A stretch of DNA of 64,000 nucleotides, from NCBI GenBank assembly GCA_023259055.1, contig JAHFQZ010000004.1:62001-126000 (forward strand), given 5' to 3'. The notes under the pieces were generated by a model, which saw nothing but the letters and a program-made list of their open reading frames with translations, was not told the origin of the DNA and ran no database searches. Source of the DNA: Nitrosomonadales bacterium (GTDB taxonomy: Bacteria > Pseudomonadota > Gammaproteobacteria > Burkholderiales > Gallionellaceae). Position numbers and translations under genes: made by a program. Positions 6,361 through 57,661 of this stretch are shown here, in pieces. Every line of letters begins with the position of its first letter. Within the stretch, counting starts at the first letter, position 1.

Positions 6361-6672
6361 ATGTCGCAATTCAATGACGTCAGCGTAGTTAAAAAGGGCA
6401 ATGTATTCTTCGACGGCAAGTGTGTGTCGCATTCGGTATTGTTTGCCGATGGCACGCGCAAGACGGTCGGCGTGATTTTGCCCAGTACGCTCACTTTCAA
6501 TGTCAGCACACCAGAGCTGATGGAAATCACCTCGGGGACCTGCCGCGTGAAGATCGGCGATGAGCCTGATTTCAAGACGTATGCTGCGGGTAGCAAGTTC
6601 TCCGTCCCCGCAAACAGCCGCTTTGTGATTGAAGCGAATGAGGTGGTCAACTATGTTTGCAATTTCGGCTAA
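6361..6672 (+). CDS. ppnP: Pyrimidine/purine nucleoside phosphorylase
   Basis: A 103-residue cupin-fold protein of the DUF1255/YaiE family, which phosphorolyses several nucleosides. Recognisable marks are the start (MSQFNDVSVVKKGNVFFDGK), TRKTVGVILPSTLTFN, the EITSGTCRVKI strand pair and FSVPANSRFVI. An AGAGGAAA ribosome binding site precedes the ATG. It is downstream of the macro-domain gene with a 23-nt gap. Pairing of an ADP-ribose-binding protein with a nucleoside phosphorylase hints at nucleotide salvage, but this is only context. Confidence 0.88.
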   Translation: MSQFNDVSVVKKGNVFFDGKCVSHSVLFADGTRKTVGVILPSTLTFNVSTPELMEITSGTCRVKIGDEPDFKTYAAGSKFSVPANSRFVIEANEVVNYVCNFG

Positions 6673-6683
6673 AAGGACTTCTA

Positions 6684-6822
6684 GTCCACGAAAAACACGA
6701 AAGGCACGAAAGACAAGCAATCATTTAAGTCGGTTATATAAGTTGCGTTCTGGATATTAGCCTGACACTTGGCTTCTCTTTAATATTTGGTTTGTTCGTG
6801 TTTTTCGTGCCTTTCGTGGACA
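6684..6822. repeat. Inverted pair of 9-nt-period CACGAAA triplets, locus 1
   Basis: CACGAAA occurs at 6687, 6696 and 6705, exactly 9 nt apart. The complementary heptamer TTTCGTG follows on the same strand at 6803 and 6812, with GTTCGTG at 6794, again 9 nt apart. The two blocks are inverted copies separated by about 82 nt, filling the ppnP-yajQ gap. A transcript could fold into a long stem. A second locus with the same heptamer lies at 27203-27308. Confidence 0.85.
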
Positions 6823-6856: not shown

Positions 6857-7345
6857 ATGCCAACCTTCGATATCGTTTCAGAAGTAGACAAGACAGAAGT
6901 AAAAAATGCGATCGAGCAGACCAACAAGGAAGTCAGTACCCGCTTCGACTTCAAAGGCTCGGATGCGCGCGTGGAGCAGGCCGAACTCAAGCTCACCGTG
7001 TGGGCTGATAACGAATTCCAGCTGGACCAGGTGCAGGACATCCTGAATGCCAAACTGACCAAGCGCGGTGTGGACATCAAGTGCCTGGAGATCAGCGACA
7101 AGATCGAAAAAGTCAGCGGCAACAAGGTGAAACGCGGCTGTGAGGTCAAGGTCGGCGTGGAAATCGAACTGGCGAAAAAAATCGTCAAGCACATCAAGGA
7201 CAGCAAGTTGAAAGTGCAGGCCAGCATTCAGGGCGACACCGTCCGGATCACCGGCAAGAAACGTGATGATCTGCAAGAGGCAATCGCCTTCGTCAAAAAA
7301 ACCATCACCGATTTTCCGTTGCAGTATCAAAACTTCCGCGATTAA
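6857..7345 (+). CDS. yajQ: YajQ-family nucleotide-binding protein
   Basis: A 162-residue protein with the UPF0234/YajQ pattern throughout: [46 protein letters not shown] and [19 protein letters not shown], ending in the conserved [11 protein letters not shown]. YajQ proteins have two ferredoxin-like domains, and members in some bacteria bind cyclic di-GMP. Length is exactly typical. It follows the inverted CACGAAA repeat locus. Confidence 0.95.
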
Positions 7346-25938: not shown

Positions 25939-26117
25939 TATTATTTCCTGAGTAAGTTCCGAGCGGCCCCGCTGGAACGTTAAAATTCAGGAAATGTGAA
26001 GGGAAGAAAAACCAGAATACGAACTGCGATACCGTTCATGTGTATCCTGATGCGCCCACCCGCAGCATCTCCTGTTACGTTTGGAAACCTCTAAAAATCT
26101 GAATTATTAGAGATACC

Positions 26118-26335
26118 CATTTGCTTTCAGGCCGGTCTCCGGGCTCACAAGTCTTGATCTGCCGCCTTCCCATAAGATCCCCTTCCTACATATCTTTTGG
26201 GGGATTACTCACAGTGGCATTTTGGCAAATCCGCACTCGCTTACCGTTGCGGGGGCAGCACAGGCATAGAGAACAAAAGTTCCCGCACCTGTTTCCCGTT
26301 TAACCCGTCTGCATGCAGACGGGAACCTCAAAGCG
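26118..26335 (-). ncRNA. Cobalamin riboswitch
   Basis: On the minus strand the conserved core can be read in order: a 5' GGTTCCCGT/ACGGGAAAC stem with an inner CCCGTCTGCATGCAGACGGG hairpin (26304-26323), CAGGTGCGGGA, TGCCCCCGCAACGGTAAGCG, GCCACTG, GGGAAGGCGGC and the 3' GAGCCCGGAGACCGGCCTG. This is the classic adenosylcobalamin aptamer. A following stem CTCTAA/TTAGAG near 26090-26112 may belong to the expression platform. It lies 180 nt before btuB and should shut down the ten-gene operon when cobalamin is plentiful. Ends are approximate. Confidence 0.95.
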
Positions 26336-26424
26336 GAGCGAACTTTACCACAAACTTATCGCGCATCACCAAATCAAAAAAAGCAGTAAAGTTACAAACC
26401 GCTTGCACAACGCCACCTTACCAT

Positions 26425-26969: not shown

Positions 26970-27151
26970 TTTGTCCCCTGCGGTGTTCGTCAGGCTCATA
27001 TATTCTTTGAACCAATAAGCTTTGCTTAAGGCCGTAACCTTTAATGCCACTGTTGTGCGCGTTCCTAGCGGATGTACCTGATGTGACTTGGAAACGGCCC
27101 TCTTGAACCCAGGTTCAAGATGCTGGGCCAACGGCACAGGCGGGGGACTCC
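26970..27151 (+). ncRNA. ssrS: 6S RNA
   Basis: The gene follows zapA directly. The 5' end GTCCCCTGCGGTGTTCG pairs with the 3' end GGCACAGGCGGGGGACTCC to form the closing stem, and the segment CTTGAACCCAGGTTCAAG followed by GGGCCAACGGCAC is the conserved 3' half seen in proteobacterial 6S RNA. About 182 nt, a normal size. 6S RNA mimics an open promoter and binds sigma-70 RNA polymerase in stationary phase. Ends are approximate. Confidence 0.88.
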
Positions 27152-27202: not shown

Positions 27203-27308
27203 CACGAAATACACGAAAAGCACGAAACGATGTATACGGCGATATTCAATGTGTGAATTTTTTCGACAAAAATAGTAGTTTGATTTCATGCTTTTCGTGT
27301 ATTTCGTG
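27203..27308. repeat. Inverted pair of 9-nt-period CACGAAA triplets, locus 2
   Basis: CACGAAA at 27203, 27212 and 27221 (period 9), then TTTCATG at 27284 and TTTCGTG at 27293 and 27302 (period 9). The blocks are inverted relative to each other with about 56 nt between. It fills the gap between the 6S terminator and the EVE-domain gene, and is the same heptamer family as 6684-6822. Confidence 0.85.
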
Positions 27309-27799: not shown

Positions 27800-28597
27800 A
27801 TGGACTGGTATTTAGCCTATCTCCTGCTTGGTGCATTCGTCGGCATTTTTGCCGGCATGTTCGGCATCGGCGGCGGGGCGATACTCGTGCCGGTGCTACT
27901 GTTCCTGTTCGATGCGCAACACTTCCCCGCTGATAATCTGCTGCATCTCGCGCTCGGCACGTCGATGGCAACCATCATTTTTACCTCTCTTGCCAGTTTG
28001 CGTAAACATCACCAGCACGGCGCGGTTAACTGGCGCGTGGTGCGCGACATCACGCCGGGCATCCTGATCGGCACTGCCATTGGTGCGCTGTCCGCCACCA
28101 GCGCTTCGCCGCGTTTCATGGGGATATTTTTCGCGCTGTTTGTGTATTTTGCGGCAACGCAAATCCTGCTCGACAAGCGCCCGCACGCATCGCGCCAGCT
28201 TCCCGGTGTCGCAGGCATGACGGCAACCGGAATATTTACCGGCTGGCTGAGCAGCATGGTATCCATCGGCGGCGGCACGGTAGTGGTTCCCTTCCTGTTG
28301 TGGTGCAATGTTGCGCTCAGGAATGCAATCGGCACCTCCGCCGCAATCGGTTTTCCGGTCGCGATCGGCGGTACGGCGGGCTACATCTTTACCGGCATGA
28401 ACATATCTGCTTTGCCTGACCACACCCTCGGCTTTGTCTACCTGCCCGCATTGTTCTGGGTCGCGCTCGCCAGCGTCATCACCGCGCCGCTCGGCGCGAA
28501 AGCAACGCATCGCATGAAGGTCAGCGTGCTGCGCAAGATGTTCGCCTTGCTGATGATTGCATTGGCGACCAAGTTGCTGTTCAAAGTGCTGGGTTGA
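27800..28597 (+). CDS. TSUP/TauE-SafE family membrane transporter
   Basis: A 265-residue protein with eight predicted transmembrane helices in two homologous halves: GAFVGIFAGMFGIGGGAILVPVL in half 1 and GIFTGWLSSMVSIGGGTVVVPFLL in half 2, each with the TSUP GIGGG/SIGGG motif. The start at 27800 lies directly after the EVE gene stop. Members export sulfite, sulfoacetate or other organosulfur anions; the substrate here is not evident. A second TSUP gene, more clearly linked to sulfur, lies at 52995-53777. Confidence 0.88.
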   Translation: MDWYLAYLLLGAFVGIFAGMFGIGGGAILVPVLLFLFDAQHFPADNLLHLALGTSMATIIFTSLASLRKHHQHGAVNWRVVRDITPGILIGTAIGALSATSASPRFMGIFFALFVYFAATQILLDKRPHASRQLPGVAGMTATGIFTGWLSSMVSIGGGTVVVPFLLWCNVALRNAIGTSAAIGFPVAIGGTAGYIFTGMNISALPDHTLGFVYLPALFWVALASVITAPLGAKATHRMKVSVLRKMFALLMIALATKLLFKVLG

Positions 28598-36532: not shown

Positions 36533-36681
36533 CACAGAGTACACAGAGATCACAGAGAAGCCTCTGGCACACCACGATGAGTTGCTTGTCACCCGACTCG
36601 CGAATCCCGCCGATTACCGATCCATCAGCCACGAAGCGTAAAGGCACCTGCGCGATCTCTGTGTCCTCTGTGATCTCTGTG
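36533..36681. repeat. Inverted pair of 9-nt-period CACAGAG triplets
   Basis: CACAGAG at 36533, 36542 and 36551 (period 9) and CTCTGTG at 36657, 36666 and 36675 (period 9), separated by about 99 nt. Same architecture as the CACGAAA loci but another heptamer. It occupies the livH-livM gap inside an operon, so it is transcribed and could fold into a long hairpin. Confidence 0.85.
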
Positions 36682-57594: not shown

Positions 57595-57661
57595 CGCAGA
57601 TTACGAAGATTAGACGGATTAAAACCAAAACAAAAATCTGCGTGAATCTGCGTAATCTGCG
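57595..57661. repeat. Inverted pair of 9-nt-period CGCAGAT-like triplets
   Basis: CGCAGAT (57595), CGAAGAT (57604) and GACGGAT (57613) are 9 nt apart. ATCTGCG occurs at 57636, 57646 and 57655 as the inverted block (steps 10 and 9). The first block is degenerate but the layout equals the CACGAAA and CACAGAG loci. It lies between cysD and cysN within an operon. Confidence 0.78.

Follow-up and report, generated by a model that had tools for sequence, protein, structure and literature searches.

The window analyzed here, a 64-kb stretch of bacterial DNA, contains four pairs of heptamer arrays. The first pair, locus 1, is intergenic and occupies the ppnp-yajQ junction, where both host genes lie on the + strand. 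The downstream gene, annotated as DUF520, is presumably yajQ (YajQ). The features at this junction are as follows.

6361-6672, + strand: Ppnp (PF06865), host gene upstream of locus 1
6684-6711, + strand: locus 1 left array, GTC followed by CACGAAA AA CACGAAA GG CACGAAA
6712-6793, no strand: locus 1 spacer, 82 nt, lacking a GxxExxY gene or any clear trace of one
6794-6821, - strand: locus 1 right array, GTTCGTG TT TTTCGTG CC TTTCGTG followed by GAC
6857-7345, + strand: DUF520 (PF04461), host gene downstream of locus 1

The initial annotation described three CACGAAA heptamers followed by three complementary heptamers, all 9 nt apart. This is exact for the left arm (6687-6711), with CACGAAA at 6687, 6696, and 6705 at a step of 9 nt; the right arm (6794-6818) has two exact units (TTTCGTG at 6803 and 6812), and its innermost unit, GTTCGTG at 6794, carries one mismatch. 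Outward, the arms close with GTC (6684-6686) on the left and its complement GAC (6819-6821) on the right. The other three pairs in the window are the following.

27203-27227, + strand: locus 2 left array, three exact CACGAAA units, 3' of the 6S RNA gene
27284-27308, - strand: locus 2 right array, two exact units plus CATGAAA (one mismatch)
36533-36557, + strand: locus 3 left array, three exact CACAGAG units
36657-36681, - strand: locus 3 right array, three exact CACAGAG units
57595-57621, + strand: locus 4 left array, CGCAGAT type, degenerate
57636-57661, - strand: locus 4 right array, CGCAGAT type, spacing 9 and 10

Locus 2 starts about 50 nt past the 6S RNA gene. Two transporter-permease-like ORFs, both on the minus strand and read as livM/livH by inspection only, flank locus 3, and locus 4 (about 57595-57661), absent from the initial annotation, lies between genes read in the same way as cysD and cysN. 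With neighboring ORFs assigned by inspection, each of the four loci is flanked either by two genes on the same strand or by an RNA gene on one side and a gene on the other. An RNA-family scan of the window detects only 6S RNA (26972-27150, +) and a cobalamin riboswitch (26113-26345, -), both at gathering score, and no rRNA at that score.

Conservation of the architecture rather than of the heptamer, as first proposed from the window, is borne out: CACGAAA, CACAGAG, CGCAGAT, CACGAAT, CGCGAAT, CACGGAA, and other units have a common geometry and a CRCRRA core. The strict 9-nt step gives way to a spacing of 9 or 10, and the equation of 9 nt with three codons carries no weight, since locus 1 is intergenic; a coding explanation of the step is rejected on the same ground. 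In the window, chains of at least three CRCRRA units number seven at spacing 9 or 10 and zero at spacings 7, 8, 11, and 12. One of the seven, at 28129-28153 on the minus strand, lies inside an ORF and is probably a chance occurrence.

A genome-wide search for triplets, as the initial annotation proposed, returns 38 matches (21 + 17) of CACGAAANNCACGAAANNCACGAA in the 2.6-Mb genome from which the window comes, versus none (0 + 0) for a reversed-pattern control; five of the 38 overlap inside one 7-unit array. In the same genome, a two-unit pattern of the CGCAGAT type matches 37 times and the CACAGAG pattern 5 times, each against a control of 0. The CACGAAA pattern is present in 37 of 61 congeneric genomes (own included), with 0 to 81 matches each. 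Over this genus sample, the reversed control yields three CACGAAA matches in two genomes and none for CACAGAG or the CGCAGAT type. At 43 array ends of the own genome, the letters of GTC occupy positions -3 to -1 in 34, 41, and 40 of 43; positions -5/-4 are T-rich and an A-run spans -14 to -10 (26-29 of 43 each), with little signal farther out.

The array architecture seen in the window therefore stands, but a GxxExxY gene bracketed by such arrays was missed, as it lies outside the window. GxxExxY (PF13366) is an orphan PD-(D/E)XK nuclease family of roughly 120-140 residues. Its only match in the own genome, G000:C2:142586-142933(-), sits between CACGAAA arrays at 142545-142568 and 142964-142987, so that a nuclease flanked by CACGAAA arrays accompanies the CACGAAA loci; for the window loci of the CACAGAG and CGCAGAT types, the PF13366 search of this genome found no matching nuclease.

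PF13366 occurs in 19 of 61 genus genomes. Twelve genus loci and 29 loci from a 150-genome phylum sample were fetched, of 22 and 43, respectively, among the matches listed. At six of the 12 genus loci, the gene is bracketed by triplets with no more than one base of difference between units: CACGAAA at L052, L054, L059, and L062 and CACAGAG at L057 and L058. L061 has period-9 ACAGGAT-type arrays on both sides, and L053, L055, L056, L060, and L063 are of CGCGGAG or CGCAGAT types by eye.

A wider scan of named genomes took the best 80 of at least 555 loci, which are hence near the query; those resolved carry 21 phylum names. Strict autocorrelation (15 of 18) detects period 9 in 25 of 80 named loci and period 10 in 7 of 80, and in the phylum set period 9 in 0 of 29 and period 10 in 2 of 29. 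Because this measure misses arrays of mixed units, a chain test for the CRCRRA motif was chosen. The motif was read off the 80 named loci, on which the test was designed; the 29 phylum loci form a separate test. Of the 80 named loci, 72 have chains of at least two units at 9 or 10 nt close to the gene (at least three units in 51, both sides in 43), versus 0, 0, 2, 1, 2, 2, and 1 of 80 at spacings 5, 6, 7, 8, 11, 12, and 13. Farther than 600 bp from the gene, 46 chains occur in 191 kb, the near DNA amounting to 51 kb. In the phylum sample, 23 of 29 loci have chains, versus 0 at spacings 7 and 12, 1 at 11, and 3 at 8; 20 chains lie far from the gene. Eight of the 80 named and 6 of the 29 phylum loci fail the chain test.

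The arrays around the gene are laid out in inverted orientation. In both sets together, 69 of 76 outermost upstream arrays face inward (+), and 71 of 77 outermost downstream arrays are on the - strand. In the named set, the median distance from the upstream array end to the matched domain is 42.5 nt (n = 60) and from the stop codon to the first downstream array 6 nt (n = 56). Arrays that hug the start and stop of the gene leave little room for a promoter. Where both neighbors run the same way, the GxxExxY gene is co-oriented with them at 44 of the 52 such named loci and at all 24 such phylum loci, with ORFs called mechanically, which fits read-through expression from host operons. Neighbors are opposed at 17 of 80 named and 5 of 29 phylum loci, and a neighbor is uncalled at 11 and 0. 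Within family f22, one operon junction, trpD-trpC by eye, carries the GxxExxY element repeatedly (L188, L194, L203, L213, and others); L154 and L155 each resemble a gmd-fcl junction.

PF05635 (23S_rRNA_IVP, a four helix bundle) was taken as a control because it is also a small orphan family. Its 44 loci comprise 14 from the genus and 30 from the phylum sample, of which two score below the Pfam cut-off and four are fragmentary. Twelve of the 14 genus loci and 18 of the 30 phylum loci have strict period-7 arrays. None of the 44 has an array of period 9 or 10, and none has CRCRRA chains at 9 or 10 nt near the gene. At a looser threshold, period-7 arrays are present at 36 of 44 loci, on both sides at 15, and inverted in 14 of those 15. 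The PF05635 gene is co-oriented with same-way neighbors at 32 of 34 loci; neighbors are opposed at 7 of 44 and uncalled at 3. In these samples, then, the period goes with the protein family. The period-7 units themselves are diverse (L064-L077 and L217-L246), including GTTAGTC, GGCAGTA, and GAGTGGG.

The predicted structure of the GxxExxY protein at L079 (pLDDT 95.9) is a compact nuclease domain. Its nearest solved fold is SSO0001, which we take to be a Cas4 protein, with a Foldseek E-value of 1.2e-4, TM 0.59, and rmsd 12.1 for the top chain; by VIA the match has Z 9.8 and rmsd 3.3 over 98 aligned residues. Rows at Z below 8 (Hjc, restriction enzymes, Cas4-like) are inseparable, and a profile search of solved structures gives only a weak match, to T7 endonuclease I (E 0.034). 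All 58 sequences of alignment A2, which covers 58 of the 80 named loci, retain the D, E, and K of the PD-(D/E)XK core; L058 was left out of alignment A1.

Unit and nuclease co-vary. The nuclease tree holds 115 sequences, 99 with a unit; 6 of 121 were dropped for a stop in the matched stretch, and 16 unitless rows were left uncounted. On this quick tree, whose 116 columns leave many open forks and make change counts indicative, unit class (positions 4, 5, and 7) requires 30 changes versus 63.8 when shuffled (minimum 56) and unit position 7 alone 13 versus 41.8 (minimum 36); host phylum requires 40 versus 49.5 (minimum 43) over 65 rows. Moreover, in 40 of 65 cases (13.7 expected), a nuclease shares its unit class with the nearest protein found outside its own phylum. 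This co-variation with a nuclease of roughly 120 residues makes specificity directly testable by unit swaps.

Carriers of each nuclease type can be ranked among the 61 genus genomes by matches of their own unit. Carriers of the CACGAAA type (G050, G010, G042, and the own genome, G000) rank 1, 3, 4, and 5; those of the CACAGAG type (G019 and G049) rank 1 and 2, with 19 of the 38 G049 matches in one long array; and those of the CGCAGAT type rank only 3, 8, 16, and 18. The one-sided p values are 0.0004, 0.003, and 0.01, respectively, from statistics that ignore kinship and rest on 12 typed genus loci, with the CGCAGAT-type gene of G050 assigned from array places and possible carriers among the others. 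In the phylum sample, the generic pattern occurs in 18 of 24 genomes with PF13366, 20 of which are one family (f22), versus 13 of 126 others; the reversed control matches 8 of 150. The CACAGAG-type GxxExxY gene of G019 (L058, 1501-1848) has an in-frame TAA, and this genome has the most CACAGAG matches.

Arrays also occur in genomes where the PF13366 search gives no matching nuclease. The own genome has its 37 CGCAGAT-type matches, yet only a CACGAAA-type nuclease. G016, which is 100% complete, has 8 CACGAAA, 51 CGCAGAT, and 20 CACAGAG matches and no PF13366 match; its arrays might be relics, or might have moved although no gene resides there. Other genus genomes with no PF13366 match have 21 (G036), 54 (G037, 73% complete), 19 (G025), 11 (G023), and 10 (G053) CACGAAA matches, and two such genomes of the phylum sample have 22 (G097) and 9 (G168) matches.

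Comparison of congeners at orthologous loci, a check that the initial annotation suggested for strains, reveals filled and short empty junctions at both ppnp-yajQ and cysD-cysN, and hence insertion polymorphism. At ppnp-yajQ, 29 congener loci were examined, of 59 genomes with a match, the own locus (L158) standing outside this count. Four of the 29 (L175, L184, L170, and L186) are empty, with junctions of 25-44 bp. G042 and G037 have the same element as locus 1, and G027 and G036 have degraded or divergent ones; by eye, the junction otherwise holds CGCAGAT-type elements (e.g. L164, L166, and L173), period-7 types (L177 and L180), or other sequences. The cysD-cysN junction, named by inspection, was obtained in 8 of 10 genomes searched. 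It is empty in two of the eight, with gaps of 3 bp in G027 and 31 bp in G010. The gap is 63 bp in G036, an element is present in G020 and G050 as it is in the window, and three genomes have other repeats. No target-site duplication could be established, as the empty-site flanks of the congeners are too diverged to define one. The absence of arrays at some congener junctions calls for a step of insertion or loss.

In one orthologous trio, heptamers are conserved over the spacer. Relative to locus 1, the heptamers agree at 41 of 41 positions in both G042 and G037, and the spacer at 64 of 83 and 57 of 83, respectively. In G027, the heptamers agree at 28 of 41 positions, and the one PF13366 gene found in that genome sits in CGCAGAT-type arrays. 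At L176 and L185, the ppnp-yajQ junction has a collapsed GTCCAC-GA-GTGGAC form, TTTTGTCCACGAGTGGACAGTTTTAG, in which the left end is fused to the right end, perhaps as the footprint of an excision or a hairpin deletion. Other inverted repeat families occur at the same junctions, at L249, L251, and L250 (cysD-cysN) and at L165, L162, and L179 (ppnp-yajQ), exemplified by the CATTCCCGCGCAGGCGGGAATCCAGT and GTAGGTTGGGTTAGC types.

With its inverted CRCRRA arrays at 9 or 10 nt and a GTC/ATC/AAC boundary, locus 1 is probably a gene-free copy of a small operon-dwelling mobile element whose ends are unit arrays recognized by GxxExxY. The ends of such an element would be inverted arrays of about three units each, with core CRCRRA, a step of 9 or 10, and a boundary of mostly GTC, ATC, or AAC. 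Full copies would contain one gene, for the PD-(D/E)XK protein GxxExxY, whose start and stop codons would each have an array nearby. The element would sit between host genes, mostly in the direction of both, and would probably be expressed by read-through. Each GxxExxY lineage may recognize and bind its own unit; the protein would bind the arrays at both ends and cut there, and through repair or joining the element could then be moved or copied to intergenic sites that are transcribed. A nuclease of matching specificity would act in trans to mobilize gene-free pairs. An array 5' of the start codon could additionally let the protein limit its own synthesis. Counting against this reading are the array-rich genomes with no PF13366 match, the low ranks of the CGCAGAT-type carriers, the own genome's CGCAGAT-type matches beside a CACGAAA-type nuclease only, the in-frame TAA of L058, the GxxExxY loci that fail the chain test, and the chains that lie far from the gene.

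Homing or gene conversion differs from this reading in that the nuclease would cut pre-existing arrays, repair would copy arrays and gene, and the units would thereby be kept uniform. There are 24 gene-free pairs, and among the 18 whose spacers exceed 25 nt and were compared, 5 share sequence with another and 13 do not. It is because these 13 spacers are unrelated to others, with uniform heptamers, that homing is a serious alternative to transposition. The PD-(D/E)XK family and the variable array length, from 7 units in L013 to about 21 in L057, are also in line with it. The long array, of the CACAGAG type, is in tandem beside the gene (L057, 1845-2040, in G049); a run of overlapping matches at G059:C58 from 55423 resembles it. 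The array-free junctions in congeners weigh against homing, which we consider rather unlikely as the account of these loci.

At the level of RNA, the arrays could matter as a stem, i.e. as an RNase III site, a processing or stability hairpin, or RNA-binding sites, much as in a 23S rRNA intervening sequence (IVS), with GxxExxY acting on RNA or being a passenger. The strand bias relative to host neighbors (44/52 and 24/24, and 32/34 for PF05635) suits such an element. So do the stable stems predicted; the initial annotation suggested that a transcript could form one of about 25 bp, and RNAs of these arrays are predicted to fold, with z from -3.6 to -7.9. They fold because the arrays are inverted, however, and the stem does not hold up as a conserved feature. 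With heptamers kept, the 2-nt linkers agree between arms at 53 of 132 positions versus 60.0 +/- 5.5 when shuffled, over 33 array pairs chosen by hand among the matches listed from the own genome and the genus. Linkers unmatched across the arms indicate that pairing is not what is kept, and each heptamer looks like a protein-read unit rather than half of a stem. The nearest solved fold, SSO0001, a PD-(D/E)XK-type nuclease at Z 9.8, likewise argues against an RNA-level role, as does the lack of any Rfam or rRNA match at the 20 PF05635 loci scanned of the 44. In the parts of a Coxiella study drawn on here, the 23S IVS has as a rule three tandem heptamers (two in some strains) before an S23p ORF and a terminal stem of 28 bp that RNase III cuts, which favors the RNA-level account, and a hypothesis is cited that the IVS ORF served mobility (PMC4990558). 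The tandem heptamers are in line with period 7 at PF05635. Overall, the RNA-level account appears quite improbable.

Least likely, and very improbable, is that the arrays bind a host regulator, as proposed for TAACTGA repeats just 5' of start codons in the sections cited of PMC4679880, and that GxxExxY genes came among them: heptamer conservation across three species at one locus with a drifting spacer and the array-rich genomes lacking the gene fit this account, but across phyla the unit tracks the lineage of the nuclease, and one junction holds arrays, other repeats, or nothing among congeners, so that the two junctions examined give no sign of a conserved regulon.

On the mobile-element reading, the gene-free pairs differ from classic deletion-derived MITEs, as their spacers lack a clear remnant of the L052 gene. 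No clear remnant was found in any of the 18 spacers (longest exact match 11 nt, E 0.005), and the longest exact match of the locus 1 spacer to that gene is 7 nt. Locus 1 has the MITE-like form in its inverted ends, shortness, lack of coding capacity, and multicopy state; like MITEs, the array pairs are short, gene-free, intergenic, and present in many copies with inverted ends. Unlike in MITEs, the ends are arrays of units and not one repeat, most compared spacers are unrelated, and there is no transposase of a known kind.

Unlike REPINs, the elements described here have non-palindromic units in direct arrays, a PD-(D/E)XK protein (RAYT is an HUH protein), and the gene inside full copies. They resemble REPIN/RAYT (TnpA-REP) in their short inverted pairs between genes, gene-free copies, and nuclease family (cf. 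excerpts of PMC3116915). REPs are palindromes tagged GTAG or CGTC, according to excerpts of PMC3733652; membership in this class is rejected, as CACGAAA-like units are not tagged imperfect palindromes. A MITE linked to PD-(D/E)XK_2 has been suggested in Thiomargarita, in the portion consulted of PMC4853749.

The TAACTGA repeats of Beggiatoaceae and others are similar in being heptamer direct repeats between genes. As described in the same partial text (PMC4679880), they lie just 5' of start codons, are patchy across phyla, have period 7 with a single inverted set out of 170 in that genome, and are read as translation regulators; that text proposes no linked gene and calls the way of spread not evident. 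The array elements differ in being inverted, nuclease-linked, and of period 9 or 10, and the TAACTGA repeats might belong to the period-7 class.

23S rRNA IVSs share with the elements a small, selfish-looking form, one small ORF, and terminal inverted repeats (PMC4990558, in the parts drawn on above). The PF05635 loci have IVS-like period-7 arrays, with co-orientation as in GxxExxY loci. The terminal inverted repeats of locus 1 can form a stem, as in an IVS, and the locus is not inside 23S rRNA and has no S23p (PF05635) ORF in its 82-nt spacer. GxxExxY elements differ from IVSs in protein family, in a period of 9 or 10 rather than 7, and in lying between genes rather than in rRNA.

It is possible, and we put it forward tentatively, that these loci represent a general and undescribed kind of mobile element that is operon-dwelling and promoterless, with inverted periodic-array ends whose period is fixed by a small protein (9 or 10 for GxxExxY, 7 for PF05635). 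A lone Cas4/RecB-like nuclease would read an evolving unit code and spread both itself and gene-free copies, and the 23S rRNA IVS would be one branch noticed before. The association described here places an orphan family annotated by motif alone (GxxExxY, TIGR04256) in a context and points to a likely role for it, links the S23p four-helix family to a parallel architecture, and supplies a candidate origin for a class of repeats found here between genes in genomes from many phyla. The initial annotation knew of no described family with the 9-nt rule. In agreement, the open-licence literature contains, among the matches listed, no 9-nt class and no repeats flanking GxxExxY genes; the one listed paper with one of the 16-nt heptamer strings is on phage holins.

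Membership in a defense or phage family was also considered and rejected. PADLOC gives no match for the one GxxExxY or the one PF05635 protein examined. PHROGs gives no match for one GxxExxY protein and an Avd-like match for one PF05635 protein. As a check of phage as vectors, one scan of viral_contigs found only two relatives. In one of them (L267, a contig in a viral collection), a GxxExxY gene lies, by eye, between inverted period-9 arrays of the ACGGAAT type.
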